Below are positions 7,222 to 20,843 of a stretch of 64,000 nucleotides of DNA, one piece after another (position 1 is the first letter of the stretch; each line of letters opens with the position of its first letter). The stretch lies in contig VGTH01000010.1 in assembly GCA_016874755.1 (NCBI GenBank), positions 62,001 to 126,000 of the forward strand. Direction: 5' to 3'. This DNA comes from Deltaproteobacteria bacterium. GTDB lineage: Bacteria > Desulfobacterota > Binatia > UBA9968. The notes under the pieces were generated by a model that did no database searches, was not told the DNA's origin, and saw only the letters and a program-made list of their open reading frames with translations. The translations under genes were made by a program, and so were the position numbers.

Positions 7222-7301
7222 GCAACTAGTGATAGTGCTCCTTCGCTCAAAAATTTCCCGCGTATCCGAATTTCCCCTTTCCGTTCTCCGCGTTTCATAC
7301 T

Positions 7302-7808
7302 TCACACCGTGAATTCCCCAGTAAACAACAGCGCCACCGGCTGCTTCAAGCCATGCATCATGCGCACGGCGTTCTTGATCTTTGTGTCAATCTCGTCGTC
7401 ATTCCTCAAAATCTCGTGCTCGATGCCGAGCGCTTGCAGCTGCGGCACCATGTGCGTGCCATAGTGAGAATAAAGAAAGGTGCTGCGCCGGTCCTCCATG
7501 CTGCCGATGTAGCTGACCAGCAGCAGCATTGGCACCCCGTAGCGCTCACCCAGCGTGAGCAGGTTGTACGATGAGACGAAGAGTCCGGTTCCTTCCATGT
7601 ACACCGCCGGCTGCTTGCCGCCCAGGGAAGCACCAGCGGCGATGCCGACTGCTTCGGCCTCGCTGGCAACCGGCACGAGTGTAAAGGAATTGTCCTTCTT
7701 GAGCACAGAAAGTATTTCACTCAAACGTGTCTCCGGTAAGTATGTTACAAAGTCGATAGCCGCTGCTTTGAGCGCGGCGACGAGTTTCTCCGCAGATTCA
7801 GGCTTCAT
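7302..7808 (-). CDS. TPP-dependent decarboxylase, alpha (PYR) subunit, copy 1
   Basis: This 168-residue protein matches the N-terminal PYR domain of sulfopyruvate/phosphonopyruvate decarboxylases (ComD-like). The conserved glutamate that activates the thiamine aminopyrimidine is Glu50 in S-E-A-E-A-V-G-I-A-A-G. The domain is complete and ends near residue 165. It starts 21 bp after the GGT-like gene and is followed by binding protein A after about 80 bp, then by the beta subunit. The active site should form between this chain and the product of 5652-6251. It is a paralogue of 20346-20843, with the same length and the same position of the key Glu. Confidence 0.8.
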   Translation of the reverse strand: MKPESAEKLVAALKAAAIDFVTYLPETRLSEILSVLKKDNSFTLVPVASEAEAVGIAAGASLGGKQPAVYMEGTGLFVSSYNLLTLGERYGVPMLLLVSYIGSMEDRRSTFLYSHYGTHMVPQLQALGIEHEILRNDDEIDTKIKNAVRMMHGLKQPVALLFTGEFTV

Positions 7809-7829: not shown

Positions 7830-9413
7830 CTAAAAGCCCAATGCGCAACCCCCCTTGCGCGGATCGGAACCGCCGATGAAGGCGCCGGATTCGGGATGGA
7901 TCATGATCATATGCGCGCCGCCGAAGCTTTCGGGATTGCCGCCGACGACCTGGTGACCGCGGCGGGTTAGCTCGTCTTTCACGGGCTGTGGTACTGCCGG
8001 TTCCAAGCCGACTTTCGTTGCTTCGATGTGGTTAAAGCGCGCGGAAGAGATCGCCTGTTGCGGTGTCATGCCGTGATCGATGAGATTGGAAATGATCTGC
8101 GTCTGCACCTGCGGCTGCACATGGCCGCCTTTTAGACCTAGCGCAGCGTAAGGCTTGCCGTCCTTGAACATGAGTCCGGGCATCAGCGTATGCACGCAGC
8201 GCTTGTGCGGCGCGATGCAGTTGGGATGATTTTCATCGAGGGAAAACAGATGGCCGCGGTTCTGCAGGATGATTGCGGTCTCAGGCTCGACCACGCAGGA
8301 ACCAAAACCCATGAAGTTGCTTTGAATGAACGACACTAGATTACCTTGGCTGTCCGCCACGGCCATGTACTCGGTGTCCGTTCCACTTGGCGCATTCGGA
8401 TACGCGGCGGCCGCTTTGTTCATATCGATGAGCGAGCGTAACTTCTGTGCGCGCTTGCTTGCGAATAGATCAGCGACCGCCACTTTCATAGAGTCGCGGT
8501 CTGCCAAATGGCGATCGCGATCGGCAAACGCCAATTTTTTCGCCTCTATCATCGCGTGCAGCGCATCCGCGGAGTTCGGTCCCATCGATCTTAAGTCGAA
8601 GCCTTCGAGAATCTTGAGCACCTCCAGCGTAACAAACCCCTGCGTCGTGGGTGGCATCTGGTAGATTTCAAAGCCGCGATAGTTGGCGTCGATCGGTTCG
8701 ACCCAGTCGGAGCGATGCTCGGCAAAGTCTTTAAGCGTTAACAAACCACCGAGCTTTTCCGAGTGGCGCACGATCCGCTTGGCGACATCGCCCTTGTAAT
8801 AATAGTCTGCGCCATCAGCGGCGATCCGCTTCAGCGTTGCCGCCATGCGCGGGTTGCGAAATAGCTCACCCGCTTTCGGCGCGCGGCCATTGATCAAATA
8901 ATTGGTCGCGCCGCCTTCGTCGGGTTTCAGCCGCGCTTCCGATTCTTTCCACTGCTCAGAGGTCAACTCGGCGACTGGAAATCCTTCTTCCGCGTGGCGA
9001 ATCGCCGCCTGCAACACATCACGCAATTTCATCGACCCATGCGAATCCAACAAGGCCTGCCAACCATGGACAGCACCGGGGACGGTGACGGAATAAATGC
9101 CGCGCTGCGGCATCTCCTTGAAGCCACTTCTACGGCAGACCTCCAAGTTCGCCGCATAGGGCGAGCGCCCGCTGGCGTCGAGCGCTATGATCTTTTTTTC
9201 TCTGGCGGAATAGAAAAGACAAAACGCATCGCTGCCGATGCCAATCGAAGAAGGCTCGACCACACCGAGCACCGCCGCCGTGGCGATCGCCGCGTCGATG
9301 GCGTTGCCACCGCCCATTAGAACGTCTACGCCGGCCAAAGTCGCCAGCGGCTGGCTGGAAGCGACCATGCCGTTCTTGGCTATAACCGAAAAATTTTCAG
9401 CCATAGAAATCAA
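7830..9413 (-). CDS. Gamma-glutamyltransferase family Ntn-hydrolase
   Basis: This 527-residue protein has the whole GGT fold: the N-terminal G-G-N-A-I-D-A-A-I-A-T motif and G-I-G-S-D-A-F near residue 60. The self-processing nucleophile site is G-T-D-T-E-Y-M-A-V-A-D, with Thr347 the likely nucleophile. No signal peptide is visible, so it should be cytoplasmic, unlike classical periplasmic GGT. Cytoplasmic GGT-like proteins act on gamma-glutamyl amides and related acylated metabolites as hydrolases. Here it heads a run with TPP decarboxylase subunits and a binding protein, which suggests a catabolic amide hydrolysis step. ATG at 9404 is an alternative start. Confidence 0.85.
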   Translation of the reverse strand: MISMAENFSVIAKNGMVASSQPLATLAGVDVLMGGGNAIDAAIATAAVLGVVEPSSIGIGSDAFCLFYSAREKKIIALDASGRSPYAANLEVCRRSGFKEMPQRGIYSVTVPGAVHGWQALLDSHGSMKLRDVLQAAIRHAEEGFPVAELTSEQWKESEARLKPDEGGATNYLINGRAPKAGELFRNPRMAATLKRIAADGADYYYKGDVAKRIVRHSEKLGGLLTLKDFAEHRSDWVEPIDANYRGFEIYQMPPTTQGFVTLEVLKILEGFDLRSMGPNSADALHAMIEAKKLAFADRDRHLADRDSMKVAVADLFASKRAQKLRSLIDMNKAAAAYPNAPSGTDTEYMAVADSQGNLVSFIQSNFMGFGSCVVEPETAIILQNRGHLFSLDENHPNCIAPHKRCVHTLMPGLMFKDGKPYAALGLKGGHVQPQVQTQIISNLIDHGMTPQQAISSARFNHIEATKVGLEPAVPQPVKDELTRRGHQVVGGNPESFGGAHMIMIHPESGAFIGGSDPRKGGCALGF

Positions 9414-9508: not shown

Positions 9509-10207
9509 TTACGCCGCCGCCGATTCCTCGATGCGCGCCATGGCCGTCGCCAACGCGCTGCGATAGGCGCGATCGACGGCAAGACTATCTTGCGCCGCGC
9601 GAATCACTGCCTGAGCCGTTATCTCATCGACGATGTACTTGTCATAAATTGGCTCGAACATATCCGAGTGATCTTCATCGGCGACCATGTGGACTTTGGT
9701 GTTGATGTCGAGTCCTTCGATCGTTCCGCCTTGGTCTGCCACGCGTTTGTGCGCGAAGCGCGCCGTGAAACCGCCGCCCTTGACGATGGCCGGGTTGTTT
9801 TTTCTTTCAGTGATGTGATTGACTGTCAGCGCTTCGATCCAGGATCGAGTGGTCGCCAGATACATCCAGGCCATTAACGCTGCGCGCACACCCGGCAGCA
9901 ACGAGGCTTCCGCCGCGGCGACGGCCATTTGTTCGTCGGTAAGATGGGCCGACCCCATGCGCTTGTCGAAGATTAATTCGTCTTTTTCATGCTCCCAGAT
10001 CGCCCGCTTGACGTCGAGCGGCGCGAACGACGCGGCTGTCGCCCAACCATCGCGCCGGCTTTTGATATAGTGCGGATAATGCATGTCCCAGATCGCCTGG
10101 CGCGCCGGGGTTAGCTTGACGCTAAAGAGTTGCTTGTACTCCGGCGTCTCGAAATGTTTGTTCACCATGGTATTTAGTTCTTCACGAACTTTGGGCCAAA
10201 GACTCAT
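9509..10207 (-). CDS. Heme-oxygenase-like diiron (HDO/TenA-like) protein 1
   Basis: This 232-residue all-helical protein belongs to the iron-containing redox enzyme family (CADD/PqqC/TenA fold). The start at 10207 is set by a strong GGGAGGT ribosome site just upstream; a start six codons earlier would put that site inside the gene. Candidate metal ligands are Glu77 (E-H-E-K-D-E-L), His88, Glu125 (W-I-E-A-L) and H173-x3-D177-x2-H180. The last motif has the spacing of H174/D178/H181 in chlamydial CADD. It is the most divergent of five paralogues in this tract, lacking the W-x-N-D-D-R-L-L segment. It follows paralogue 2 after 28 bp. The substrate is unknown. Confidence 0.75.
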   Translation of the reverse strand: MSLWPKVREELNTMVNKHFETPEYKQLFSVKLTPARQAIWDMHYPHYIKSRRDGWATAASFAPLDVKRAIWEHEKDELIFDKRMGSAHLTDEQMAVAAAEASLLPGVRAALMAWMYLATTRSWIEALTVNHITERKNNPAIVKGGGFTARFAHKRVADQGGTIEGLDINTKVHMVADEDHSDMFEPIYDKYIVDEITAQAVIRAAQDSLAVDRAYRSALATAMARIEESAAA

Positions 10208-10235
10208 TGGTACCTCCCGAATCATCGTTCCATCT

Positions 10236-10946
10236 TTATAACGGAATTTTTTCCTGCGCCAGGGCGATCCCCTTGCGGTACATGGCGTTAAACGCGAGCG
10301 AATCTTTAGCGGCCTGAATGACCGCTGCTTCTTTGGCGCCGGTTACGTGTTCCGCGATAAACGGCAAAAACATATCGCTGTGCTTCTCATCCGCCTGGCT
10401 ATGCGCCTGCATGTTGGGGATCTGCTTCCAGCTAAAGCCCATGTCCTCCATCCATTTTTTTGCCATTCGTGTCGATTGGCCGCCGCCCAGGTCGCCGAGC
10501 AAACGATCGTCGTTGCACCATTCTGTGATCGTCATGCCGGTGAGTGACTCCACCCACGGCATTTCACTGGTCATCCACGACCAGGCGTAGAGCGCCGCGC
10601 GGGTTTCCGGCGTCGGCTCCGCGTTGAGAATATCGTCCGGCTCCAAATCCACCGATTTGCCTTGGCGAATAATCAGATGCAAATGGCCGTAGTCGGAGTA
10701 GTCGTCGCGGATGATTTCTTCGTACTCATGCTCAAGAATGCGTTGCTTCACACCCATCACCGGACAAGCCGCCGATACATGGGCCCAACACTCGCGCCGA
10801 TGGCGCACGAACAGGCTTTGCTGTTTGACCATCACGGCGGCCCTGGGCTTGTTCATCTTGATGGAAAAATAAAAATCCATCTCGGGTGAACGCATATAAT
10901 CGCGCACCAGCTCGCCGAGACACTCGCGCCACTGTTTTTCGGTCAT
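10236..10946 (-). CDS. Heme-oxygenase-like diiron (HDO/TenA-like) protein 2
   Basis: This 236-residue helical protein carries a full candidate diiron site: Glu77 in E-H-E-Y-E-E, His88 in Y-G-H-L, Glu133 in W-V-E-S-L, and H182-x3-D186-x2-H189. Family members use two irons and O2 to cut or oxidise small amines, acids or amino acids (CADD, UndA, SznF). Its ATG overlaps the stop of binding protein B as ATGA, so the two are translationally coupled. This coupling is the best evidence that the ligand of B feeds this enzyme. Paralogues 3, 4 and 5 keep every ligand at the same residue number. Confidence 0.8.
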   Translation of the reverse strand: MTEKQWRECLGELVRDYMRSPEMDFYFSIKMNKPRAAVMVKQQSLFVRHRRECWAHVSAACPVMGVKQRILEHEYEEIIRDDYSDYGHLHLIIRQGKSVDLEPDDILNAEPTPETRAALYAWSWMTSEMPWVESLTGMTITEWCNDDRLLGDLGGGQSTRMAKKWMEDMGFSWKQIPNMQAHSQADEKHSDMFLPFIAEHVTGAKEAAVIQAAKDSLAFNAMYRKGIALAQEKIPL

Positions 10947-11980
10947 GACTTTGCTCGCTTGTAAAGTTTATCGGTGAAGCCGTCGCGGGCTAGCCGATCG
11001 ACGATGGAGTTATCGAACAGATTGCTCTTTGCTGCGCCCTTGGAGCCAACCATTTCCAAGACCGTGTCCACCGCCGCAGGATCGACGCGCGGTGTGGCGT
11101 CGAGATATCTTGTGACGAATTCGTAGTGGCCCTCGGCGCTGCCGCCACGCGCACCCATGTATTTTTCGAGAAGTTTGAGCGCCTGCGGCTTGCGAGTTTT
11201 CAACGCCGCGATGCCTTCAATATACGCTGCGACAATCGCTTCCACCGATTTCGGCGAGCGTTTTAGATAGTCGTTGCTGACGGTGAGCAAATTCATCGAA
11301 AAAGGAATTCCTAACTCCGCCGCGTCCACGAGCATCTTTGCCTGCGGCCCGGGCGCCTGTGACGACACCCGCCCTTCCGCCTGTCGCGCTCGAAAACCTA
11401 AATCGGCCTCGACCACGCCGCCAAACTGGCGCAGTTCGGTTTTGCCTTCGAGATTGAGCTTGCGCAAAATCAATCGCGTCACGAAATCGCTGGTGGAACC
11501 GAAGCGCGTGATCGCCAAAGTTTTGCCCGCCAACTGGTCGGCGCGCTGAATTTCCGGCTGCACCCAGAGCTGCATGCCGGGCCGGCTGGTGTTGCTGCCG
11601 ACGGCGATCATCGGCGCGCCTTTGAGCGCCGCTGCGACCACCGCGTTGCTCGCACCCAGCGCCGCCTGCACGCTGCCGCCGACTAAGGCTTGAATCGCCG
11701 TGGCGCCGGAGCTGATGTAGACCAGCTCGGCGTTCAGGCCATGGCGCTCGAACGCGCCAATTTCTTTCGCCATCCAGACACCGGACATGCTCGGGCTGAT
11801 GGCGGCGTAGGCGAAGGCGATTTTTTCTCGGGGAGGTTCGGCGGCGTAAACGAGACAAGGGTAAATGATCGCTGTGATCAGTACCAGACAGCTACGACTC
11901 GAAAAGAAACTCCGGTAGTTCCCTAGCCCTCTGGGAGAGGGTAAGGGTGAGGGCGATTCGAAGCGCGACGACTCAGCCAC
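10943..11980 (-). CDS. SsuA/THI5-like ABC substrate-binding protein B
   Basis: This 345-residue NMT1/SsuA-type periplasmic binding protein has the hydrophobic signal core C-L-V-L-I-T-A-I-I-Y-P at residues 32-42, and the family pattern G-V-W-M-A-K-E-I-G-A-F-E-R-H-G-L-N then T-L-A-I-T-R-F-G-S-T-S-D. The only in-frame ATG is at 11980. The first 20 or so codons run through a dispersed inverted repeat (S-P-L-P-S-P-R-G is the typical translation of that repeat), so the N-terminus is repeat-derived or the true start is a non-standard codon. It overlaps HDO2 by 4 bp. Confidence 0.85.
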   Translation of the reverse strand: MAESSRFESPSPLPSPRGLGNYRSFFSSRSCLVLITAIIYPCLVYAAEPPREKIAFAYAAISPSMSGVWMAKEIGAFERHGLNAELVYISSGATAIQALVGGSVQAALGASNAVVAAALKGAPMIAVGSNTSRPGMQLWVQPEIQRADQLAGKTLAITRFGSTSDFVTRLILRKLNLEGKTELRQFGGVVEADLGFRARQAEGRVSSQAPGPQAKMLVDAAELGIPFSMNLLTVSNDYLKRSPKSVEAIVAAYIEGIAALKTRKPQALKLLEKYMGARGGSAEGHYEFVTRYLDATPRVDPAAVDTVLEMVGSKGAAKSNLFDNSIVDRLARDGFTDKLYKRAKS

Positions 11981-12013
11981 CTTGTGCCCTTACCTCAGTG
12001 CTCTCCCAGAGGG
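11927..12013. repeat. Dispersed inverted repeat, CCCTCTGGGAGAG type
   Basis: The 13-bp ends CCCTCTGGGAGAG (11927-11939) and CTCTCCCAGAGGG (12001-12013) are perfect reverse complements. Inside are GGGTAAGGGTGAGGG on one arm and CCCTTACCTC on the other. Elements of this kind are scattered in many environmental genomes and produce spurious S-P-L-P-S-P-R-G peptides. This copy covers the start of binding protein B. Confidence 0.75.
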
Positions 12014-12094
12014 AGAGGAAGTAAGACGCCGCTCGCAATGCATTTGTCTTTTGCTGCTTCATCAAGCCGCTCAACAAACTACCCCCGACAACCG

Positions 12095-12802
12095 TCACTC
12101 CACCGCCAACATCGCATCCGCCAACCCCGCTTGATACACCCGGTACAACTCCTCGGATTCCTTCGCCGCCTGCAAAATCAATTGCTCATTCTCACTTTTG
12201 CCGTGCTCTTCCCACACCGGCAAAAACATATCGACGTGTCCTTTGTCCGCTTCGCGGTGCGCTTTCCAATTGGGCAGATCGTCCCAGGTAATTCCCAAAT
12301 GATCGACCCAGCGCTGGCCCATGCGATAGGCGTGGCCGCCGCCGATGTCGCCAAGCAGCCTGTCATCCTGATTCCACTCGGTCATCGATATCGCCGACAA
12401 GCCTTCGAGCCAGTGTTTCTTTTTACAGATCCAGCCCCAGGAGTAGAGCGTCGCCGTGGTCGTGGGAAGCGGCTTGGCGTTTAGAATGTCGTCAGCGCCG
12501 AGACCGATACATTTGCCTTGGCGGATGATCAGGTCAAGGTGGCCATGCTCGGAGTGCTGATCGCGGATCATCTCTTCATACTCATGAGCGAGAATCTTCT
12601 GCTTGATTGCCAAGACCGGCGTGTTGCCTGAGACAAACGCCCAGCAATCGCGCCGGTGGCGCACGTAGAGCGAGAGCTGCTGCAAAATTATTTGCGCTCG
12701 GGGTATAGTAATCGGTATGGAGAAGTAACGCTCCAACTCCGGTGAAATCATTGTTTCCCGCGCCAGGCCGCCGAAAGTATCGGCCCAACTTTTAGCGGCC
12801 AT
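12095..12802 (-). CDS. Heme-oxygenase-like diiron (HDO/TenA-like) protein 3
   Basis: This 235-residue paralogue of HDO2, 4 and 5 starts at an ATG with a strong GAGGAGGAG ribosome site. The ligand set is intact: Glu77 (H-E-Y-E-E), His88 (H-G-H-L), Glu133 (W-L-E-G-L), H182-x3-D186-x2-H189 (A-H-R-E-A-D-K-G-H). The strongly conserved family segments R-H-R-R-D-C-W-A and T-E-W-N-Q-D-D-R-L-L are present. It lies 39 bp after binding protein C on the same strand, repeating the binding protein then HDO order seen for B/HDO2 and D/HDO5. It is a likely diiron oxygenase or oxidase; substrate unknown. Confidence 0.8.
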   Translation of the reverse strand: MAAKSWADTFGGLARETMISPELERYFSIPITIPRAQIILQQLSLYVRHRRDCWAFVSGNTPVLAIKQKILAHEYEEMIRDQHSEHGHLDLIIRQGKCIGLGADDILNAKPLPTTTATLYSWGWICKKKHWLEGLSAISMTEWNQDDRLLGDIGGGHAYRMGQRWVDHLGITWDDLPNWKAHREADKGHVDMFLPVWEEHGKSENEQLILQAAKESEELYRVYQAGLADAMLAVE

Positions 12803-12841
12803 TTGGTTGTTCTCCTCCTCTAACCGGATCAGCTACTTCTC

Positions 12842-13834
12842 TCACGGCCATGGCCACGCGAGATTTTTTCTTGCCTCGCGCAGTTGTGTATAATCCACGA
12901 GGTCGCTGACGCTTGGCTTCTTTTCTATCTTCTCCCGGGCGTTAATCATGTCCGCGGTCAGCAGAACCCCGCGATCATCCACTTCGCCATTTCGACTATA
13001 AGATTTTAACGCCAAGTCATAGGTCAGAGATGCAATTTTCTTGTCAAGCTTGAGCCAATTCTCGATCACGTCTACGGTCCCGATCTTGTTTTCCAAGACG
13101 TAACGAAGACCTTTCATCGATCCCCGCAATATGCGCCTAACTTGTTCCGGGTTTTCCTTAACTTTCTTGACCGTAGTCGCAAGCCCGGAAAACGCCAGGC
13201 TTTCTACCACATCGGCGCCAGCGACAATCATTTTCAGGCCGGCCCTTTCACCTTGAATGACTCCCTGGGAACCGAGCAGCGCCGCTTGCACAATACCGCT
13301 TTCCAGCGCCTGGAGTCTTAAATCCTCTCCGCCGATGGGCCTGATCGTCACATCCGTCGATGGGTTCAGTCCGATGCCCTCCAAAAGCCGTAGAGTCAAG
13401 AGATGAGTCACGCTTCCCACGGCGCTGATCCCCACTACTTTACCTTTGAGCTCGCGTGCAGAGCTGATGCCCTTTGCGCCGACCAGGAAATCCATCGGCT
13501 TGGCGGCATAAAAACCGATAACGACCACCGGCAGCCCTTGCATCCTCGCCGAAATGCTCGCGGTCGACGTTGTCACATAGTCGACGCTACCAGCCGTGAG
13601 CGCGTGAATAATCACAGATATGTTCGTCCTCACAAAATCTGCTTGAAAATTTTCCTCCTCAAGAAAGCCCCTTTTTTGCGCGACAATCAGGGGCAAAAAA
13701 CTCGTCGACGGACTCGGATAAGCGATGACAACTCGTTCAGCCTGTGCCGGGCTCGAGCCAAAATCGGTAACGAAAAAACAGGCCAGAAACCCTGACAATC
13801 GAGCGAGCCAAACATTCTTGCGGCGACGTGGCAT
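12842..13834 (-). CDS. SsuA/THI5-like ABC substrate-binding protein C
   Basis: This is a 330-residue periplasmic binding protein. I chose ATG 13834 because AAGGAGG stands 6 bp upstream and the product begins with a basic N-region (M-P-R-R-R-K) and a signal peptide ending in S-S-P-A-Q-A (residue 32). A 50-residue upstream extension is the reverse reading of the UbiD 3' end and can be dropped. Family features are the A-Y-P-S-P-S-T-S-F-L-P strand and E-L-K-G-K-V-V-G-I-S-A-V-G-S. It is more divergent from A, B, D and E than they are from one another, so it may bind a different ligand. It sits between UbiD (upstream) and HDO3 (downstream). Confidence 0.85.
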   Translation of the reverse strand: MPRRRKNVWLARLSGFLACFFVTDFGSSPAQAERVVIAYPSPSTSFLPLIVAQKRGFLEEENFQADFVRTNISVIIHALTAGSVDYVTTSTASISARMQGLPVVVIGFYAAKPMDFLVGAKGISSARELKGKVVGISAVGSVTHLLTLRLLEGIGLNPSTDVTIRPIGGEDLRLQALESGIVQAALLGSQGVIQGERAGLKMIVAGADVVESLAFSGLATTVKKVKENPEQVRRILRGSMKGLRYVLENKIGTVDVIENWLKLDKKIASLTYDLALKSYSRNGEVDDRGVLLTADMINAREKIEKKPSVSDLVDYTQLREARKNLAWPWP

Positions 13835-13892
13835 GGGGGGCCTCCTTCTGTGGCATGACGCTGCACGAGCGGTAATTGTTCCTTTCGCATCC

Positions 13893-15338
13893 CTATGCCC
13901 AATAAGTTGTCCGGTCCAAAGGGATATGCTGCAAAACTTCACCGGGCACGTAATTTTCCAACTTGATCCGCAGCATGGCCTCATCTGGACACTTCGACAC
14001 CGGTGAGAACGGCCGGTCCAGCGGCCGGGTGGCGTCGACGATCATGCAGGAAGTCTTGATGTAGTCGACCAGCGACGGGTCCAGCGTGTTGCCGCGAAAA
14101 ATCGGCTGGGTAATCGAAATTTGCAGGTGCGGCTGCACCCGGGTTGCCAAGGCCCAGAGAATATCCGTTGGGTTAAACACGTCGATGTCTTCATCAAAAA
14201 CAAAAACGTTTTTTGTGTGATCGATGGTCAAGGCCGCCGCGGCAGCTCGGCCGGCGTCTCCCTCCGACAACTTTTTCATCGAGATAAAAACATTGTAGTG
14301 CGCATGGCGACCAGCCTTACAGACCGCCGTCACTCCGGGAACGGCTTCACGAACCCGCCTGAGATAAGCTCCTTCTCTAGGCAGATCCATCCACGGCTTG
14401 TCACCTTCCGGAGTGATAACCGACTGACACATCGCGCCCTTGCGGTACGTGATCGCGCGCACCTCGTAGTGCGGCGACCGGATGTAGCTCTGCGGCCCCA
14501 GATAACCCGGCGCTTCTCCGAAGGGTCCTTCGACTATGCGTTTACCGGGGAGCAGCGCGCCTTCGACCACAACCTCGGCATCCGCCGGCACGAGTAAGCC
14601 GTCGCCCCAGGTTTCCGACGGTACGAGCCGCAAAGGTTCGCCAAGATAACCGCCGATCACTTCATATTCGTCGACTTCGAAGGCGCCGGTGTAACAGGCG
14701 CCCATGTTGAAGGCAGGATGGTGACCGAGAACCGTCGCCACCGGGCATTCGAGATTATTGTCTTCGTAGTCGCGGTAGATCTTCCACAGGTGGCGCGGCG
14801 ACGCCGAACAACCGGTGGTGTTGCGCGACTTGATCTCCATGCGGTGATAGGAGCAATTGTGAATCCCCGATTTGCGGTCCCGGGTGACGGTGACCATGAC
14901 AATGTAAGGCCCGCCGTCCATCTCGTGATGGCGCATCACCGGCAGGTCGAGGAGATCGACATCCGCGCCGACTTTGACGACTTCTTTAACCGGCGCCGAT
15001 TTTTTATCGACAATGATCGGGGCAATGCGCCGTTCCTCCATCTTCAGACAAGCCTCGGCCATATCCGTACGACTCATCTCCTTTGGCAGTCCCAAGGCAA
15101 TCTGGGTCTTGCGCTGGGAGATCTCGCAATTCATCACCATCTTGAGACCGTTGACTTTGCCATGCAGGTTCAAGGGATTTTCGAAGATCAAAATCGGAAA
15201 TTTCTTCATCGCACCGAGGTGCTTGATGATCGCGGTTACATCGTAATGAGCAGGATCGACCTCCTTCGTGATGCGCACGACTTCGTTGGGAATTTCTCTT
15301 TGACAGTCCTCTAAGAAACTTCGCAAACTCTTCGGCAT
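13893..15338 (-). CDS. UbiD-family prenyl-FMN decarboxylase
   Basis: This is a full-length 481-residue UbiD-fold enzyme. Such enzymes use prenylated FMN to add or remove CO2 on aromatic or alpha,beta-unsaturated acids. The catalytic pair of glutamates is visible in E-G-P-F-G-E (Glu270 and Glu275), with Arg166 in N-C-S-Y-H-R-M completing the Glu-Arg-Glu set known from Fdc1. The cofactor-maker UbiX is not in the window. A strong GGGAGGAG ribosome site fixes the ATG. It is the only gene of its kind in the HDO/binding-protein tract and is followed after 58 bp by binding protein C, which suggests that C imports an acid decarboxylated here. Confidence 0.9.
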   Translation of the reverse strand: MPKSLRSFLEDCQREIPNEVVRITKEVDPAHYDVTAIIKHLGAMKKFPILIFENPLNLHGKVNGLKMVMNCEISQRKTQIALGLPKEMSRTDMAEACLKMEERRIAPIIVDKKSAPVKEVVKVGADVDLLDLPVMRHHEMDGGPYIVMVTVTRDRKSGIHNCSYHRMEIKSRNTTGCSASPRHLWKIYRDYEDNNLECPVATVLGHHPAFNMGACYTGAFEVDEYEVIGGYLGEPLRLVPSETWGDGLLVPADAEVVVEGALLPGKRIVEGPFGEAPGYLGPQSYIRSPHYEVRAITYRKGAMCQSVITPEGDKPWMDLPREGAYLRRVREAVPGVTAVCKAGRHAHYNVFISMKKLSEGDAGRAAAAALTIDHTKNVFVFDEDIDVFNPTDILWALATRVQPHLQISITQPIFRGNTLDPSLVDYIKTSCMIVDATRPLDRPFSPVSKCPDEAMLRIKLENYVPGEVLQHIPLDRTTYWA

Positions 15339-15412
15339 AGCTCCTCCCTATGTATGGGTAGTCCCCGTTACTTGATCATTCCCTCCTTTAGCCGCTTCAG
15401 TTCTGACTTAAA

Positions 15413-16120
15413 CTAGCTCAACCGTTCCATCTCGCGGGCGATGCCGTGACGAAACATCACCAGCAATTGCATAGACTCTTTCGCCGCCTGATAGGCCTGG
15501 GCTTCCTTCTCCCCGGTGGCAAAATTTTCCAAATCGCCAAGGAACATGTCGCTATGCTCTTCATCTGCCTCTGCGTGCACGGCAAAATTGGGCATCTGCT
15601 CCCAGCCAAAGCCTAGATCGTCCATCCAGCGCTTGGCCATACGCCGGGACAGCCCGCCGCCCAAGTCCTGCAGCAAGCGGTCGTCGTTGGCCCATTCGGT
15701 GATCGTCAGTGACGCCAAACCTTCCAGCCAACTCTTCTCGCGCGTGATCCACGCCCAGGCGTAGAGAGTAGCCATGGTCGACGGCAGCGGCGGCACGTTC
15801 AGCACTTGCTCGGGCGACAAACCGAGGGCTTTCCCCTGGCGCACGATCAACTCCATGTGACCATGTTCGGTGTAGTTGTCTTTGATCACTTCGCCGTATT
15901 CATGCTGGAGAATTTTCTGCTTCACCGACATGTGCGGGCAGTTGCCCGACACATGGGCCCAGCAGTCGCGCCGGTGGTGAATGAACAAACCAAGCTGTGT
16001 GATTAACGCCTGCGCCCCGGGCTTGGTAATTTTGACTTTGAAATAGTGCTCCATCTCCGGCGTGCGCATAGCATCGCGCACCAGCTCGCCTAACTCTTTG
16101 CGCCACTCAGTTTGCTTCAT
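15413..16120 (-). CDS. Heme-oxygenase-like diiron (HDO/TenA-like) protein 4
   Basis: This 235-residue paralogue of HDO2, 3 and 5 has every candidate ligand at the same position: Glu77 (H-E-Y-G-E), His88, Glu133 (W-L-E-G-L), H182-x3-D186-x2-H189. The sequence before the ATG has no Shine-Dalgarno site and is taken up by a GCGCAAAG-type dispersed repeat, so its native leader may have been lost. Its downstream neighbour is UbiD, 74 bp away. Unlike the other copies it has no binding-protein gene directly upstream. That place is held by repeats and the VOC gene. Confidence 0.8.
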   Translation of the reverse strand: MKQTEWRKELGELVRDAMRTPEMEHYFKVKITKPGAQALITQLGLFIHHRRDCWAHVSGNCPHMSVKQKILQHEYGEVIKDNYTEHGHMELIVRQGKALGLSPEQVLNVPPLPSTMATLYAWAWITREKSWLEGLASLTITEWANDDRLLQDLGGGLSRRMAKRWMDDLGFGWEQMPNFAVHAEADEEHSDMFLGDLENFATGEKEAQAYQAAKESMQLLVMFRHGIAREMERLS

Positions 16121-16144
16121 ATGCAGACTCGTCTACTGGATGGG

Positions 16145-16463
16145 CCTCGCGCAAAGCATGTCCTGAGCACGGTCGAAGGGGCGCAAAGATCGCAAAGTAA
16201 GATTCTCACCAAAATGCGGAGGGCGGGTCCTAGACCCGCCCCTACAAATGCCGACTCGTTTGCGCCATTGAAGCCTCGCCGCATCGCCTGGCGCACACGG
16301 CGCACCCTACAAAAATCTGTCGCTGCGTTTTTTGCGGCTATGCTTCTCTGCGGTTGCGGCTTCGGAGGGCGGGTCCGAGACCCACCCCTACAAAGATCGG
16401 ATACGCTGTGCGCCATCTTTTTTCCCGAACTTTGCGCCCCTGCGCCTCTGCGCGAGATATTCC
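16145..16463. repeat. Nested dispersed repeats (GCGCAAAG inverted repeat enclosing two CGGAGGGCGGGT copies)
   Basis: This noncoding gap holds outer arms with CTCGCGCAAAG, GGCGCAAAG and TCGCAAAG (16145-16198) facing GAACTTTGCG and CTCTGCGCGAG (16427-16463). Inside are two direct copies of a palindromic unit around GGAGGGCGGGTCC[TG]AGACCC: 16216-16250 and 16363-16395, each continuing into CCCCTACAAA. I see no gene between 16121 and 16466. Confidence 0.7.
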
Positions 16464-16466
16464 GAG

Positions 16467-16805
16467 CTAGATCGGCCAGCCGTGTTTCGAGACGTCGACG
16501 CGGTTGCCTTCGACGTCTTTGATCCAGCTCTCAGCGATCGCCCCGTAGGTGTTTTCTTCGGCTTTGGTGTTGGCGATCTTTTCGATTTCCTCCACGCTGT
16601 CAACCTTAAAACCAAAGTGATGAATGCCCCAAGGATATTTGTCGGTATGAATCAGCGCCAGGTCCATGTGACCGTCGGAAAGATAAATCGTACCGCCGGG
16701 ACGGCGGTGCTTAATCTCCATGCCAAACACTTTCACGTAGTACTCAGCGGTCTCGTCAAGCTTTTCCACATTGATGGCGATATGTCTAATTCTAGGTTTT
16801 TCCAT
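16467..16805 (-). CDS. VOC-fold (glyoxalase/dioxygenase superfamily) protein
   Basis: This 112-residue single-module VOC protein has I-R-H-I-A-I-N-V at the start (His8), W-G-I-H-H-F-G-F-K-V-D in the middle (His61/62) and a C-terminal V-E-G-N-R-V-D-V in which the Glu is the usual last metal ligand. Such proteins use a divalent metal for isomerisation, epimerisation or oxygenation. One module of this size must dimerise to form a site. It lies between HDO5 and HDO4, flanked on both sides by dispersed repeats, with AGGGGGA upstream of its ATG. Its role in the tract is unknown; isomerising an intermediate is a reasonable guess. Confidence 0.75.
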   Translation of the reverse strand: MEKPRIRHIAINVEKLDETAEYYVKVFGMEIKHRRPGGTIYLSDGHMDLALIHTDKYPWGIHHFGFKVDSVEEIEKIANTKAEENTYGAIAESWIKDVEGNRVDVSKHGWPI

Positions 16806-16884
16806 GGGATCCCCCTAATTTCTGATACGATGAACTCTAAATAGCAGTTAAACCTTCTAATAAGACAAGTTGTCGCATATGGCA

Positions 16885-16970
16885 GTGTCATCCTGAACGG
16901 AGGGAAGGAAATCGACCGAAGTTTCGAGAACGGACGAGATTCCTCGTCGCTGCGCTCCTCCGGATGACAC
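16885..16970. repeat. Dispersed inverted repeat, GTGTCATCC...GGATGACAC type
   Basis: Perfect 9-bp ends GTGTCATCC (16885-16893) and GGATGACAC (16962-16970) enclose the usual body (C-T-G-A-A-C-G-G-A ... T-C-G-T-C-G-C-T-G-C-G-C-T-C). Its minus-strand translation gives the familiar spurious peptide H-P-E-E-R-S-D-E-E-S-R. It fills the gap between VOC and HDO5. Confidence 0.8.
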
Positions 16971-16993
16971 ACTTTTTACCAACGAACCAGCCC

Positions 16994-17707
16994 TCAATTG
17001 AGCGGTATCTTCTCCATCTCCCGCGCCACCCCTTCACGATACACGCCGAATAAATCCAACGACTCCTTCACTGCGTCGAGCGCCATCTGTTCTTTTTCAC
17101 CGGTCGCATACTTCTCCAGAAACGGCAGGAACATATCGCTGTGCTCTTCGTCTGCCTGCGAGTGGACCACGAAGTTGGGCATGTCCTTCCAGGGGATGCC
17201 CATGTCATCAGTCCAGCGTTTGCCCATGCGGGTGGAGTGGCCACCGCCGACGTCCTTCAGTAAACGGTCGTCGTTGGTCCATTCGGTCACGGTCAAAGCG
17301 GACAAACCTTCGATCCAGTGCTTTGCGTGGGTCAACCAGGCCCAGGCGTAGAGCGTTGCCGTGGTCGTTGCAAGCGGTTTAGTTTCGACGACCTGCTGCC
17401 CTGTCAAGCCAAGCTTTTCGGCCTGCTTGATGATCAGATACAAATGGCCAAAATCGGAAAAATCATCTTTGATCACCTCGCCATACTCATGCTGCAAGAT
17501 CGCCTGCTTGACACCCATCACCGGGCAGTTGGCCGACACATGGGCCCAGCAGTCGCGCCGGTGGCGGATGTAGAGCCCCAACTGCGTGATCATAAGCTGC
17601 GCCCGCGCTTTGTTCATCTTGACCGAGAAATAATGTTCCACCTCGGGGGAGCGCATGTGATCGCGCACCATCTCGCCGATCGCTGTGCGCCATTCGGGTA
17701 CCTGCAT
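16994..17707 (-). CDS. Heme-oxygenase-like diiron (HDO/TenA-like) protein 5
   Basis: This 237-residue paralogue has an AAGGAGG site before its ATG. The ligand set is intact at identical positions: Glu77 (H-E-Y-G-E), His88 (F-G-H-L), Glu133 (W-I-E-G-L), H182-x3-D186-x2-H189 (V-H-S-Q-A-D-E-E-H). It is visibly closest to HDO4 and HDO2. It follows binding protein D by only 11 bp, so the pair is probably one transcript and co-translated. It should bind two irons; the reaction is not known. A plain TenA thiaminase role is less likely because the TenA catalytic Cys is not evident. Confidence 0.8.
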   Translation of the reverse strand: MQVPEWRTAIGEMVRDHMRSPEVEHYFSVKMNKARAQLMITQLGLYIRHRRDCWAHVSANCPVMGVKQAILQHEYGEVIKDDFSDFGHLYLIIKQAEKLGLTGQQVVETKPLATTTATLYAWAWLTHAKHWIEGLSALTVTEWTNDDRLLKDVGGGHSTRMGKRWTDDMGIPWKDMPNFVVHSQADEEHSDMFLPFLEKYATGEKEQMALDAVKESLDLFGVYREGVAREMEKIPLN

Positions 17708-17718
17708 AAAGGTCCTCC

Positions 17719-18663
17719 TTATTTATAGAGGCTGTCGAAAAACTTTTCTTGTACGAGACGATCGATGATCGCGTTATCGTAGAATCTGGCTGGAGCTATA
17801 TCCGATTTGCCTTCCCATGCCAACACGGTTTGGATGGCGGCTGGATCGACCCGTGGCACCCGTTCCAGGTAGCGTGCCGCGTATTCGTAGGAGTCCTCGA
17901 CGTCGGTTTTGCGTAAATACTTTCGGATGATTTCTACAGCGACTTCTTTGCGCCGCATGATCGTCGCGACACCGTCGCTGTAGGCCTTTAGCATGCCCTC
18001 TACGACTTTCGGTGAAGTCTTTAGATAGTCGCGGTTGACACCGAACAAGTCCATGGGAAAGGGAATCTTGAGCTCGGCAAGATCCGCCAACGCATGCGCC
18101 TTGGGATCGGGCTTGACCGAGCGCACCGCGCCTTGTATCAGCCCTGCGCGAAACGAAGCATCGGTTTCCGGCGCGCCGCCGAGGGCTTGCAACTTGACCT
18201 TGTCCTTGAGGCCGATTCTTTCGAGAGCGACGAGTGTTAGATAGTGAGTGGTCGAGCCATGACGCGAAATGCCGAGCACTTTCCCTTGCAACTGCTCGGG
18301 CCGCTTGATGTCGGGCTGTACCCACAATGTCATCGCTGCGAGATTCGCTACCGAGCCAACGGAAACGAGTGGCGCGCCTTGAAGCGTGGCCGCGATCACC
18401 GCGTTGCCGGCGCCGCCCACCACTTCGACTTCTCCCCCTACCATCGCCTGGACGGCGACGCTACCGGAGCCAATGTAAAGCAGCTCGCCGCGCACGCCGT
18501 ATTTTTCGAAGGCGCCGGTCTCTTTGGCGACCCACAGGCCGGCGAAGATCGAGCTGATCGAAGAGTAGGCTATGCGCACCCGCGGGAGTTGTGGCGCGGC
18601 AGCGTGTGAGGATGAGACGGACAGCCACAAACAAATAATGGCCAAGACAGTAGTTTTCTTCAT
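17719..18663 (-). CDS. SsuA/THI5-like ABC substrate-binding protein D
   Basis: This 314-residue periplasmic protein starts at ATG 18663 with GGGGAG upstream. The signal peptide M-K-K-T-T-V-L-A-I-I-C-L ends near A-A-A (residue 23); a 25-residue upstream extension is not signal-like. Family segments are A-Y-S-S-I-S-S-I-F-A-G-L-W-V-A-K-E-T-G and V-L-G-I-S-R-H-G-S-T-T. It is strongly alike to B and E, including the D-N-A-I-I-D-R-L-V type C-terminus. It is paired with HDO5 downstream. No transport permease is nearby. Confidence 0.87.
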   Translation of the reverse strand: MKKTTVLAIICLWLSVSSSHAAAPQLPRVRIAYSSISSIFAGLWVAKETGAFEKYGVRGELLYIGSGSVAVQAMVGGEVEVVGGAGNAVIAATLQGAPLVSVGSVANLAAMTLWVQPDIKRPEQLQGKVLGISRHGSTTHYLTLVALERIGLKDKVKLQALGGAPETDASFRAGLIQGAVRSVKPDPKAHALADLAELKIPFPMDLFGVNRDYLKTSPKVVEGMLKAYSDGVATIMRRKEVAVEIIRKYLRKTDVEDSYEYAARYLERVPRVDPAAIQTVLAWEGKSDIAPARFYDNAIIDRLVQEKFFDSLYK

Positions 18664-18758
18664 GGTCTCCCCGTGCGCCGAATATTCTAACCGCGAACTT
18701 ATTGTCGAGTTCCGATTCCGCCTTTGGAAAATCGCCATTTCAAAGGGGGATGTCTGGA

Positions 18759-19724
18759 CTACGGCTTCTTGTACAACCGCTCGACAAACCCTTCGCGCGC
18801 CATCTTATCGGTAATCGTCGCGTCGGCAAAGGTTTCGAACGGGACGCCCTTCTTGCCCGCGAATTCCAAAATCGTCGCCATCGCCTCCGGCTCGGCGCGC
18901 GGCATGCGGTCGAGGAATTTGGCCGAGTCTTGATAATGATCCTCGATGTGTCTGGGATCGGTGAGACGAGAATATTTCGCAATCACTTTTAGCGTTCGCT
19001 CTTTTTGCAGGTTCATTGCCGCCACGCCCTCGGCGTAGGCGCGCACCATGCCTTCGACTTTGTCGGGATGACGCCGGTAAAAATCCTTCGACACTGGCAG
19101 ACTGTTCATCGAATAAGGAATGCCCATATCGATCAGATTGAGCAGAATCTTAGCCGGCGCGCTAGCCGTCGGTCGTAAATCCGAAGTCACCGCCCCGGCA
19201 ATGACCTTCTGTGCATAGGCGGCGCCTACTTCCGTTGTGCCCCCGAGTTGGCGCACCTGGACCGCACCCTCCAGCCCGTAGCGACGCAAGACGATGCGGG
19301 TGAGATTATCGGTGATCGAACCAAAGCGGGTGACGCCCAGTGTCTTGCCGCGCAGGTCTTCCATTCGGTTGATATCGGGCTGGACGAACAAGCGATGATA
19401 AGGCCGGTCGGCTGTGGCGCCGACGCCGATGATCGGCGCGCCGCTCAAGATCGCGTTGACCAGCGCATTGGTGGCTGCCACGCCGCCATGGAGATCACCG
19501 CCGATCAGCGCTTGCACCACCACCGGTCCCGAGGAGATGAAAATCAGATCGGCATCGATGCCATATTTCTGATAGGCGCCGCTCTCTTTGGCCATCCACA
19601 CGCCCGTCGCCATGGACGACAGCGACGAATAGGCGATCTTTAGTTTCATCGGCTGCGCGCCCACCGGCGCGCTGCACGCGATCGATATGACGAAAAGCAG
19701 AAAAACTATTGCTGCGTGACCCAT
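18759..19724 (-). CDS. SsuA/THI5-like ABC substrate-binding protein E
   Basis: This 321-residue periplasmic protein starts at ATG 19724, one base after the stop of TPP beta copy 2, which gives tight translational coupling. The signal core is A-I-V-F-L-L-F-V-I-S-I-A ending near V-G-A-Q. Family segments are A-Y-S-S-L-S-S-M-A-T-G-V-W-M-A-K-E-S-G and T-L-G-V-T-R-F-G-S-I-T-D. It is a close paralogue of B and D. The coupling to the TPP decarboxylase pair suggests that it captures that enzyme's substrate, as proposed for binding protein A and copy 1. Confidence 0.87.
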   Translation of the reverse strand: MGHAAIVFLLFVISIACSAPVGAQPMKLKIAYSSLSSMATGVWMAKESGAYQKYGIDADLIFISSGPVVVQALIGGDLHGGVAATNALVNAILSGAPIIGVGATADRPYHRLFVQPDINRMEDLRGKTLGVTRFGSITDNLTRIVLRRYGLEGAVQVRQLGGTTEVGAAYAQKVIAGAVTSDLRPTASAPAKILLNLIDMGIPYSMNSLPVSKDFYRRHPDKVEGMVRAYAEGVAAMNLQKERTLKVIAKYSRLTDPRHIEDHYQDSAKFLDRMPRAEPEAMATILEFAGKKGVPFETFADATITDKMAREGFVERLYKKP

Positions 19725-19725
19725 C

Positions 19726-20352
19726 TCACCCCCCGCCCAAGCCGCTGCCGAGTATCTCCACGCCCTCGGTTTTTTGGATGTAGCCGGCGAACTGATATTT
19801 GTTCTCGCGCGGGTCGGGTACCCGTTTGGATTTCTTCGGGCCGTCGGTGTCGAGCGGCTCGACGCGGGCCCGGATGAAATGCGGTCCATTACTCGATAGC
19901 GCTACTTGGAGTTTGCTCCGAAACGTCGCGACATCTTCGATGGTGCAGGCGCTCTCGATGCCGCAGCCTTTAGCGACCGCTTCTAAATTCATTTTTCCCG
20001 CTGTGGCCGTCGGCATGCCCGGCTCGTCTTTGTGACTGCCAAGATAATTCTGGTTGTCCATGAGCACGATAGTCAAATTCTTCGGCGCCTCGTTGGCAAT
20101 TGTCCCGAGCACGCCCAGGTTCAAGGTGAGATTGCCGTCGGAATCGACGGCGACAATTTTACGATTGGGCAGCGCCAGCGAGAGTCCCAGCGCCGTAGAA
20201 CTGCACATCCCCATCGTTAGATGAAAGAGATTGGCCTCACGTTCTTTTAGTTGCCCCCAGAAGCCGCTGTTGTTGCCGATGCTAGTCAACACCAGCACAT
20301 CGTCAGGCACGATGGACGATAATTCTTTCAGTAAAGTAAAGCGAGTTACCAT
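19726..20352 (-). CDS. TPP-dependent decarboxylase, beta subunit, copy 2
   Basis: This 208-residue protein starts at ATG 20352 with a GAGGAGG site; the gene begins 7 bp inside the alpha subunit gene. The TPP/Mg motif is D-S-D-G-N-L-T-L-N followed by M-D-N-Q-N-Y. It corresponds to the C-terminal half of sulfopyruvate/phosphonopyruvate decarboxylase (ComE-like) and is a paralogue of 5652-6251, with a shared C-terminal E-N-K-Y-Q-F-x-x-Y signature. The N-halves G-N-N-S-G-F-W-G and G-Q-R-V-E-W-G differ, so substrate choice may differ. Confidence 0.82.
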   Translation of the reverse strand: MVTRFTLLKELSSIVPDDVLVLTSIGNNSGFWGQLKEREANLFHLTMGMCSSTALGLSLALPNRKIVAVDSDGNLTLNLGVLGTIANEAPKNLTIVLMDNQNYLGSHKDEPGMPTATAGKMNLEAVAKGCGIESACTIEDVATFRSKLQVALSSNGPHFIRARVEPLDTDGPKKSKRVPDPRENKYQFAGYIQKTEGVEILGSGLGGG

Positions 20353-20843
20353 AAAGCCTCCTCGTTGAGCAGGACGGCGACAGGTTTGAGCCACGCGCGC
20401 GCCGACTCATTGCAATCCTTGATCGTGCGAACAATGTCTTCTGAGCGGCTGACGATGCGATAAGGAATATCCATCGCTTTGAGCCCAGGCTCGGTGGTCT
20501 TCTTGTAGAGCCCAAGCCAGCGCGGGTCGCCAATGTCGCCGCGATAGGGGATTACGACGAGCACGGGCACCTCGTGCAGCAGGTTGATGCGCGCCAGATG
20601 ATAGGTCGCGACCAGCAGCCCGGAAGTCGCCAGGATCAAAGCCGGCTTCTTGCCGCCGAACCAGGCACCGAAACCGATACCGGTCGCCTCGGCTTCGTTG
20701 GCCGCGCCGACATAGTGAATATCGCGGTCCTCGGCGAGCATCTTGTAGACTTCGATAAACTGGGCGTCGGGCACACCGGCAGCGAAATCGATGCCGGCCT
20801 CCTTGAGCCCGCGAATGACCAGCTGGGCTTTCTCCGGTTTCAT
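20346..20843 (-). CDS. TPP-dependent decarboxylase, alpha subunit, copy 2
   Basis: This 165-residue PYR-domain protein is a paralogue of 7302-7808. The thiamine-activating Glu is Glu50 in N-E-A-E-A-T-G-I-G. Here alpha and beta are adjacent and overlapping, the standard ComD-ComE order, in contrast to copy 1 where a binding-protein gene splits them. It is the first gene of an alpha-beta-binding protein E operon. The gap upstream carries a CACGAAG-type repeat. The reaction is probably decarboxylation of a 3-carbon 2-oxo acid. Confidence 0.82.
   Translation of the reverse strand: MKPEKAQLVIRGLKEAGIDFAAGVPDAQFIEVYKMLAEDRDIHYVGAANEAEATGIGFGAWFGGKKPALILATSGLLVATYHLARINLLHEVPVLVVIPYRGDIGDPRWLGLYKKTTEPGLKAMDIPYRIVSRSEDIVRTIKDCNESARAWLKPVAVLLNEEALW

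Follow-up and report, generated by a model that had tools for sequence, protein, structure and literature searches.

Tandem HDO-family genes in a Candidatus Binatia genome and their possible part in the catabolism of aromatic-type acids

According to the accessible part of PMC13108848, about a dozen members of the heme-oxygenase-like dimetal oxidase (HDO) family have validated functions, mainly on fatty or amino acids. Large orphan families of exported binding proteins have been described separately, for instance the 434 tripartite tricarboxylate transporter (TTT) binding proteins reported for Rhodoplanes in the available portion of PMC5994714. Here, a locus is described in which both kinds of genes occur side by side. 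It lies at positions 9509–20843 of a 64,000-nucleotide stretch (the window) of contig VGTH01000010.1 (C10 of the host genome, G000), and comprises five HDO paralogues (HDO1–HDO5), four substrate-binding proteins (SBPs B, C, D, and E), a UbiD-family decarboxylase, a single-domain VOC protein, and a pair of genes for the two halves of a thiamine pyrophosphate (TPP)-dependent decarboxylase; a second TPP pair, SBP A and a GGT-family acylase adjoin it. The host genome (5.56 Mb, 101 contigs) is that of a member of the Candidatus Binatia lineage, and the 34 named loci matching the HDO alignment belong mostly to Candidatus Binatia and to metagenome genomes labeled “Deltaproteobacteria”, with some from Alphaproteobacteria and others. 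The original prediction, made from the letters of the DNA, had placed these genes correctly: each is an open frame on the minus strand, and Pfam and NCBIfam agree with the family names. A broader reading, in which several HDO-family proteins form the basis of a catabolic cluster, is also supported. We propose, as a tentative reading to which we give slightly less than an even chance, that the array is a Binatia catabolic cluster in which paralogous HDOs oxidize related aromatic-type acids with O2, and in which ring-cleaving and decarboxylating enzymes follow.

The HDO proteins and their fold

HDO2 (10236–10946), HDO3 (12095–12802), HDO4 (15413–16120), and HDO5 (16994–17707), all encoded on the minus strand, are 50–63% identical to one another and match PF14518 with 45, 33.9, 47.2, and 45 bits, respectively. 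HDO1 (9509–10225, minus strand), which is 30–35% identical to HDO2–HDO5, has no Pfam match at an E value of 0.1 and keeps the ligand columns. In a tree of 71 rows, each of the five proteins, HDO3 included, falls into a clade of its own. That of HDO1 (15 rows) consists of orthologues and is common to genome families f2 and f3, while the f3 copy closest to HDO5 joins on a branch with an SH-aLRT support of 83% only. Six residues, E77, H88, E142, H182, D186, and H189 (HDO2 numbering), do not vary among the five window HDOs or among 27 aligned members, and these 27 relatives also have R50-R51-x2-W54, H73-E74, D81, and G154-G155. In a wider alignment of 107 rows, E77, H88, and H189 are present in all rows, E142 in 106, H182 in 105, and D186 in 103 (Glu in four). 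HDO1–HDO5 thus keep a three-His/three-carboxylate dimetal ligand set and are, by prediction, HDO-fold proteins, which would hold metal and carry out O2 chemistry. When the profile was aligned with solved structures, D81 came to lie opposite a Glu of a p-aminobenzoate synthase; both E77 and D81 are candidates for the first ligand. The subfamily carries the signature RR-x2-W ... HE-x2-E-x3-D-x6-H ... GG ... H-x2-AD-x2-H, and the spacing between E77 and H88 is fixed at 11 residues in all of its 78 rows, compared with 3 to 16 in the other rows. Subfamily matches at an E value of 1e-40 or better were obtained in 25 of the 35 genomes of the order that were searched (15 of 25 in f1, one of one in f2, and nine of nine in f3), and searches of plasmid records with HDO1 and HDO5 gave no match.

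The AlphaFold2 model of HDO5 (pLDDT 95.8) resembled most closely a TENA/THI-4 protein of Sulfolobus (Z 24.5), then CADD (Z 24.2; rmsd 2.2 Å over 209 residues), and it also matched PqqC (Z 22.4), HrmI (Z 22.0), BesC, FlcD, UndA, and PolF. Among solved structures, the sequence profile likewise retrieved the Sulfolobus protein (E 5e-12), together with a 4-aminobenzoate synthase (E 6e-4). In the self-sacrificing p-aminobenzoate synthase of the CADD type, a conserved active-site tyrosine is cleaved, as stated in the accessible part of PMC11965152. The HDOs do not fit this candidate function, as no tyrosine occurs in the invariant or near-invariant columns of the 27 HDO members.

The original prediction had also considered thiamine-pyrimidine-like compounds as substrates; in a salvage pathway of this kind, the HDOs would be TenA-like enzymes acting together with THI5/ThiY-like proteins. 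TenA and Thi5 structures are indeed among the fold matches, and PF03070 matches HDO4 with 39 bits. However, TenA thiaminase has a metal-free active site with catalytic residues of its own, whereas the HDOs retain the dimetal ligand set, and TenA-type chains match them at the fold level only. These chains are lower matches of the HDO5 model (Z 20.6 and below), so that CADD and HrmI align somewhat better, which is not decisive, as fold scores alone are not. The THI5 HMP-phosphate synthase is a cytosolic enzyme, whereas the N termini of SBPs A, B, D, and E are signal-like (that of SBP C is weaker, 1.72, under the threshold of 1.9), and no thiamine gene is found among the array genes scanned with Pfam and NCBIfam. 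Salvage of thiamine pyrimidines is thus extremely unlikely.

Sister operons and the core of the array

The link between the HDO subfamily and aromatic acids comes from operons of its relatives, in which gene labels were mostly derived from our own gene caller and profiles and in part checked with Pfam, NCBIfam, or the PDB. HDO7, encoded on contig C8 of the host, represents a sister clade of HDO2–HDO5. Its set consists of 14 loci and host locus L039 (a further match, G034:C624, was left out). In 12 of these 15 loci, a relative of gentisate/5-aminosalicylate dioxygenases directly follows HDO7, and in 11 of the 12, a relative of dihydroxyphthalate decarboxylase (DHPD) and UbiD come next; in the twelfth, the contig ends. 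The exceptions are L148, in which the contig ends at the HDO gene, and L155 and L156 of genome G019, which lack the dioxygenase. Families f1 and f3 share the gene set of this operon but differ in its order, which in f3 is DHDPS-HDO-GDO-UbiD-DHPD-UbiD (GDO, gentisate-type dioxygenase). Between the host and two f3 genomes, HDO is 72%, GDO 60–61%, DHPD 50–52%, and UbiD 66% identical.

Six dioxygenase genes located beside HDOs reached 270–317 bits with the NCBIfam models for gentisate and 5-aminosalicylate dioxygenase, which is below the equivalog cut-offs (442 and 650), and one HDO-adjacent dioxygenase matched gentisate dioxygenase in the PDB with 241 bits. The DHPD relatives match 4,5-dihydroxyphthalate decarboxylase (PDB 9jp7) with E values of 3e-39 and 1e-44 (two HDO7 loci) and 2e-37 (a tandem-pair locus), and the four such genes tested, that of G007 described below included, scored 132–219 bits. 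The relatives of 9jp7 at L039:10427–11428, L118:7944–8909, L150:4307–5311, and L161:5175–6116 have the fold of binding proteins yet are cytosolic, and are easily misread as transport receptors. At L153:1–3145, gentisate-type genes and a DHPD relative occur without an adjoining HDO, some kilobases from the HDO7 operon.

Other branches show related arrangements. A second subfamily operon, HDO-amidohydrolase-amidohydrolase-GDO-UbiD-SBP, is present in the host and in G004; G001 contains HDO-amidohydrolase-amidohydrolase-SBP without an adjoining GDO or UbiD, and G019 contains SBP-HDO-GDO. In six of seven loci, a cupin gene comes after a tandem HDO pair, with a gentisate-type gene in between in L157; in the seventh locus of this set (L159), only one HDO is present, and it adjoins a cupin in a different order. 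Directly before the tandem pair and its cupin, a relative of EutA, the ethanolamine ammonia-lyase reactivase, is encoded in four genomes, at L044:9864–11330 (Pfam, 377 bits; His-rich N terminus) and, as labeled by profile, in L160, L161, and L162. A cupin and a DHPD relative precede the window-type array in G007 and G019, the DHPD of G007 matching 9jp7 with 219 bits. In the alphaproteobacterial loci L098 and L100, a TctC-type SBP, HDO, and a gene of 374 aa (a cupin in L098) are found together. From the gentisate-type dioxygenases, DHPD relatives, and UbiD proteins of the sister operons, we infer that aromatic-type acids are catabolized with an O2-dependent oxidation step.

This association was quantified in the host genome, which contains 33 HDO genes (31 PF14518 matches and two more found by way of the family alignment), 43 UbiD matches, and 16 matches to the gentisate model, 13 of them above 150 bits. 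These 13 were used, the weaker three, one of which is the cupin beside the host tandem pair, being dropped; likewise, 51 of the 58 SDR matches (seven partial ones dropped) and the 150 amidohydrolases listed were included. Of the 13 gentisate-type genes, 3 had an HDO locus within 1 kb, compared with 0.25 expected (p=0.0018), and 4 had one within 3.3 kb (p=0.0015). UbiD was found within 5 kb in 7 of 43 cases (2.4 expected; p=0.0085). Amidohydrolases, SDRs, and ABC permeases were not enriched near HDO loci genome-wide. Within the examined stretches, five of nine subfamily HDOs had a VOC, cupin, or GDO neighbor, as opposed to 9 of 215 control genes (p=5e-5; this test comprised 28 HDOs after relabeling, that of SBP adjacency described below 33).

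Conservation of the array itself was assessed across families f1, f2, and f3. The VOC protein (16467–16805, minus strand; PF00903, 39.3 bits) is the most constant partner: it is encoded in nine f1 array loci (window, L089, L116–L119, L121, L122, and L124) and beside HDOs in all nine f3 genomes, where the orthologue is ∼62% identical if that side is on the contig; the lone HDO5 of L120 lacks it. In f3, the order is TctC-type SBP, VOC, HDO1, GGT-like, HDO5-like, HDO6, VOC, with no NMT1, TPP, UbiD, or cupin gene inside this core. Three f3 loci (L091, L096, and L129) have an NMT1 gene on the opposite strand shortly upstream of the array, and in L131 the GGT-like gene is missing. Comparison of f1 and f3 thus leaves VOC and the HDOs, often with the GGT-family acylase, as the constant core. 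Genes for TauE- and DASS-type transporters lie on the opposite strand beside the arrays of L128–L131 (f3), and in L127 (f2), HDO1 is flanked by a TauE-like fragment just below the Pfam cut-off and a CitMHS-type gene.

If the array is indeed a catabolic cluster for aromatic-type acids, its core would be formed by the cytosolic HDO subfamily and the VOC-fold protein, joined in many genomes by the GGT-family acylase. The HDOs could catalyze hydroxylation of the ring or side chain, oxidative decarboxylation, or demethylation of such acids, one paralogue serving each substrate variant. Ring opening would fall to the cupin gentisate-type dioxygenases in the sister operons and possibly to VOC in the window array, and decarboxylation or shortening to UbiD as well as, in the host, to the TPP decarboxylases. 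The role of the exported SBPs may be to gather periplasmic substrates, either for transporters whose genes lie outside the array or for sensing.

Several observations weigh against this assignment. The window array has no gentisate-type dioxygenase itself, the link being made via sister clades and two relatives, and the window contains no DHPD relative either. Also, UbiD is not enriched within 1 kb of HDO loci in the host (2 of 43; p=0.17), VOC/cupin/GDO neighbors do not distinguish the subfamily significantly from other HDOs (5 of 9 versus 3 of 19; p=0.07), and two of the four host HDO loci near gentisate-type genes (L009 and L010) belong to other HDO subfamilies, so that the dioxygenase link may be to HDOs in general. 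The two HDO7-group loci of G019 without the dioxygenase, as well as the f3 core without UbiD, TPP pair, or cupin, count on the same side, as does the GGT-family acylase, for which an aromatic pathway offers no evident role. The ring-opening role of VOC is conjectural and its matches in the PDB are weak. As metal-free PqqC also aligns with HDO5 (Z 22.4), the fold alone is not decisive.

Since the characterized HDOs act mostly on fatty or amino acids, as far as the accessible part of PMC13108848 goes, the array could instead serve biosynthesis, its HDOs modifying amino acids by N-oxygenation or desaturation. However, the array genes scanned with Pfam and NCBIfam include no carrier-protein, peptide-synthetase, or ligase family, and the gentisate-type dioxygenases, DHPD relatives, and UbiD of the sister operons point to catabolism, which leaves a biosynthetic role quite unlikely.

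The preferred assignment to aromatic-acid catabolism can be extended further: the HDOs might constitute a hitherto unrecognized class of oxygenases for aromatic acids. In Binatia, these would stand in, in part, for Rieske and flavin hydroxylases in activating the ring ahead of gentisate-type or VOC cleavage, again with a paralogue per substrate variant. The counts in the host that bear on this idea are 33 HDOs and 13 strong gentisate-type matches versus five matches to Rieske alpha-type proteins and, among 13 FAD_binding_3 matches, ∼4 long ones; as hydroxylases, these cover the Rieske-type and FAD_binding_3 families only. We regard this extension as doubtful.

Binding proteins and flanking genes

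The array's binding proteins belong to the NMT1/SsuA type, for which the profile threshold was loosened to take in weak members. SBP B (10943–11980; PF09084, 50 bits) overlaps HDO2 by 4 bp, and its real start is probably downstream of the first GTG. SBP C (12842–13984; 74 bits) lies 39 bp from HDO3; its open frame starts within UbiD, so that the real start is internal. SBP D (17719–18738; 53.4 bits) is located 11 bp from HDO5, SBP E (18759–19889; 63.3 bits) likely starts near 19724, and SBP A (6256–7305; 77.7 bits) is encoded within the second TPP pair; all are on the minus strand. The SBP-then-HDO spacings are those of the original prediction, which took the repeated pairing to suggest that each SBP is a dedicated capture protein for the adjoining HDO, the array being composed of capture-plus-oxidase modules for related substrates.

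Part of this notion stands. Wherever the gene immediately upstream of HDO2 is visible (11 of 11 genomes), it is SBP B, at gaps of −4 to +32 bases, and some SBP lies upstream of HDO5 in six of the eight f1 loci in which the upstream gene is visible. In the examined host stretches, an SBP is the immediate same-strand neighbor of 10 of 33 HDO genes, compared with 30 of 289 other genes (p=0.003), that is, ∼3-fold more often, and of 6 of 218 genes in 16 other host stretches serving as a control. The remaining pairs are not conserved, however. SBP C precedes HDO3 in the window only (one of eight HDO3 loci), and the partners of HDO4 and HDO5 swap: upstream of HDO5, D was found three times, E twice, and an SBP of the unrelated SBP_bac_6 type, a ferritin-like protein of 178 aa, and VOC once each, whereas D lies upstream of HDO4 in four of six loci. 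The f3 array has no NMT1 gene inside. UbiD genes of the examined host stretches also often adjoin SBPs (5 of 11), and the pairing is thus not peculiar to HDOs. Genome-wide, among the best 150 NMT1 proteins, a list that excludes the lower-scoring window SBPs B and D, 6 had an HDO locus within 1 kb (2.6 expected; p=0.05) and 9 had one within 3.3 kb (5.9 expected; p=0.13). At the domain level, NMT1 proteins were beside HDOs (within 1 kb, same strand) in 5 of 33 cases, and beside amidohydrolases in 17 of 150 (p=0.56; in this test and that of SBP-permease proximity, gene starts were approximated by average lengths). The HDO-SBP pairing is therefore enriched locally, but only marginally genome-wide.

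The cellular location of the two partners differs as well. By a hydrophobicity test, signal-like N termini are present in 87% of NMT1-type (n=150), 89% of TctC-type (n=36), and 91% of SBP_bac_6-type proteins (n=35), compared with 1% of HDOs (n=245) and none of 43 UbiD, 25 gentisate-type, and 27 dihydroxyphthalate-decarboxylase-like proteins (duplicate loci included). In the array, the HDO, UbiD, and VOC proteins are not signal-like. Of the 79 ABC permease-domain matches in the host, none lies within 1 kb of an HDO locus and six lie within 5 kb, which corresponds to chance. Direct hand-over from capture protein to enzyme is unlikely for these reasons. Moreover, NMT1-type binding proteins number at least 150 in the host (332 first-look candidates), and a permease domain occurs within 5 kb of only 16 of the best 150. 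Together with the 43 UbiD and 154 Amidohydro_2 matches (150 scored candidates), these numbers show that, in one 5.56-Mb genome with few permeases, families of catabolic enzymes and orphan receptors have expanded greatly. The AlphaFold2 model of SBP B (pLDDT 92.8) resembles TauA, SsuA, ThiY-type, PqqT, and Thi5 structures, and as TauA, pyrimidine-binding, SsuA, and PqqT entries align at similar TM-scores, it does not single out a ligand. Dedicated modules throughout the array are unlikely; the binding proteins are mostly exchangeable accessories, SBP B excepted.

UbiD (13893–15338, minus strand) carries all three Pfam domains of the family (PF01977, 170.6 bits; UbiD_N; UbiD_C) and passes the cut-off of TIGR00148 (248 bits versus 244.85), as expected for a UbiD decarboxylase. 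The TPP-dependent enzyme of pair 1 is encoded, on the minus strand, by a gene for the half with the TPP-binding domain (19726–20394), the top PDB match of which is a putative phosphonopyruvate decarboxylase beta subunit, and by one for the N-terminal-type half (20346–20843). Pair 2 (5652–6251, PF02775; 7302–7808, PF02776; both minus strand) follows, as had been noted, with SBP A and the GGT-like gene. Over the loci examined, genes of such pairs were labeled five times: twice in the window, once in host locus L042, and in one G014 array that is itself represented twice. TPP pairs are thus not conserved with the array.

These enzymes could also belong to a sulfonate pathway, as the original prediction had suggested, or to a phosphonate pathway, with SsuA-like capture, a ComDE-like decarboxylase, and an Ldh-like ComC. 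The TPP halves are indeed closest to the models for sulfopyruvate and phosphonopyruvate decarboxylase, the top PDB match of SBP B is TauA, and the TauE- and DASS-type genes beside the f3 array would fit. However, pair 1 remains far below the cut-offs of the ComDE models (84.1 versus 147.95 bits for TIGR03845 and 105.2 versus 221.5 for TIGR03846), as do SBP B (53.4), C (78.4), and E (75.4), the three SBPs scored, with respect to the SsuA model TIGR01728 (163.5). Given also the scarcity of TPP pairs, and the position of the Ldh2 gene ∼5 kb away on the other strand, such a pathway is very unlikely.

The GGT-family acylase (7830–9413, minus strand), also present in the f3 array, passes the cut-off of TIGR00066 (398.1 bits versus 357.85). 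Its nearest solved relative is 2nlz, a “cephalosporin acylase” (430.7 bits, compared with 243.3 bits for the E. coli-type GGT 2e0w). In the E. coli enzyme, glutamate is bound by the Arg of DFREMAP and the Asp of NNQMDDF. As read by eye from the alignment with 2e0w, the protein from the window has Ser in place of that Arg, and the residues facing the two Asp are His and Leu. Some other amide hydrolase is thus a likelier identity for it than a glutathione enzyme.

Beyond the array, a TctC/Bug-like binding protein (21053–22168, minus strand) without a Pfam match of its own is 53% identical to the product of the gene at 27311, and adjoins the large subunit of a molybdenum hydroxylase (22143–24389, minus strand). 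Between 21053 and 28339, two TctC/Bug-like proteins thus flank the molybdenum hydroxylase subunit, a phytase-like protein, and an Ldh2-type dehydrogenase; the XDH-Bug order ahead of a TPP pair recurs in G014 (L121). At 19–3120, a long and seemingly repeat-rich open frame with Calx-beta-like repeats and an SGNH-hydrolase-like part was recognized from the letters alone.

Comparison with described systems

Among the matches listed from the open literature, no paper linked heme-oxygenase-like enzymes with gentisate or UbiD, most subscription papers lying outside this search. The text of the main Binatota genome paper, in its accessible part, contains none of the terms “aromatic”, “UbiD”, “transporter”, “heme oxygenase”, and “amidohydrolase” (PMC8262859). 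What is new here is the conserved catabolic setting of HDO-fold enzymes, and a role in aromatic-acid catabolism would be new for this family. The connection of one HDO subfamily with gentisate-type dioxygenases, DHPD relatives, and UbiD provides a concrete substrate class for testing. If the proposed role is true, an oxygenase class that Pfam labels merely “iron-containing redox enzyme” would take part in environmental aromatic turnover, and so would an uncultured lineage.

The expansions of orphan binding proteins in Rhodoplanes and Bordetella resemble that of the host in that many exported SBPs face few membrane partners; here, the NMT1/SsuA family is concerned, and the lineage is Binatia. 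With the pathways of gentisate 1,2-dioxygenase and 5-aminosalicylate dioxygenase, the sister HDO7 operons have in common a relative of these enzymes together with UbiD. They differ in that the scores of the relatives stay below the equivalog cut-offs, and in that the upstream oxygenase would be an HDO. Phthalate catabolism has its counterpart in the cytosolic relative of 4,5-dihydroxyphthalate decarboxylase, which has the SBP fold, occurs in HDO operons outside the window, and may share that activity. Finally, the array HDOs are like the characterized HDOs in fold (Z ∼18–24; SznF is not among the matches listed) and in the carboxylate/histidine ligand set, as described in the accessible part of PMC13108848, but are set apart from them by a signature of their own, the fixed E77-H88 spacing, their arrangement in tandem arrays, and their catabolic neighbors.

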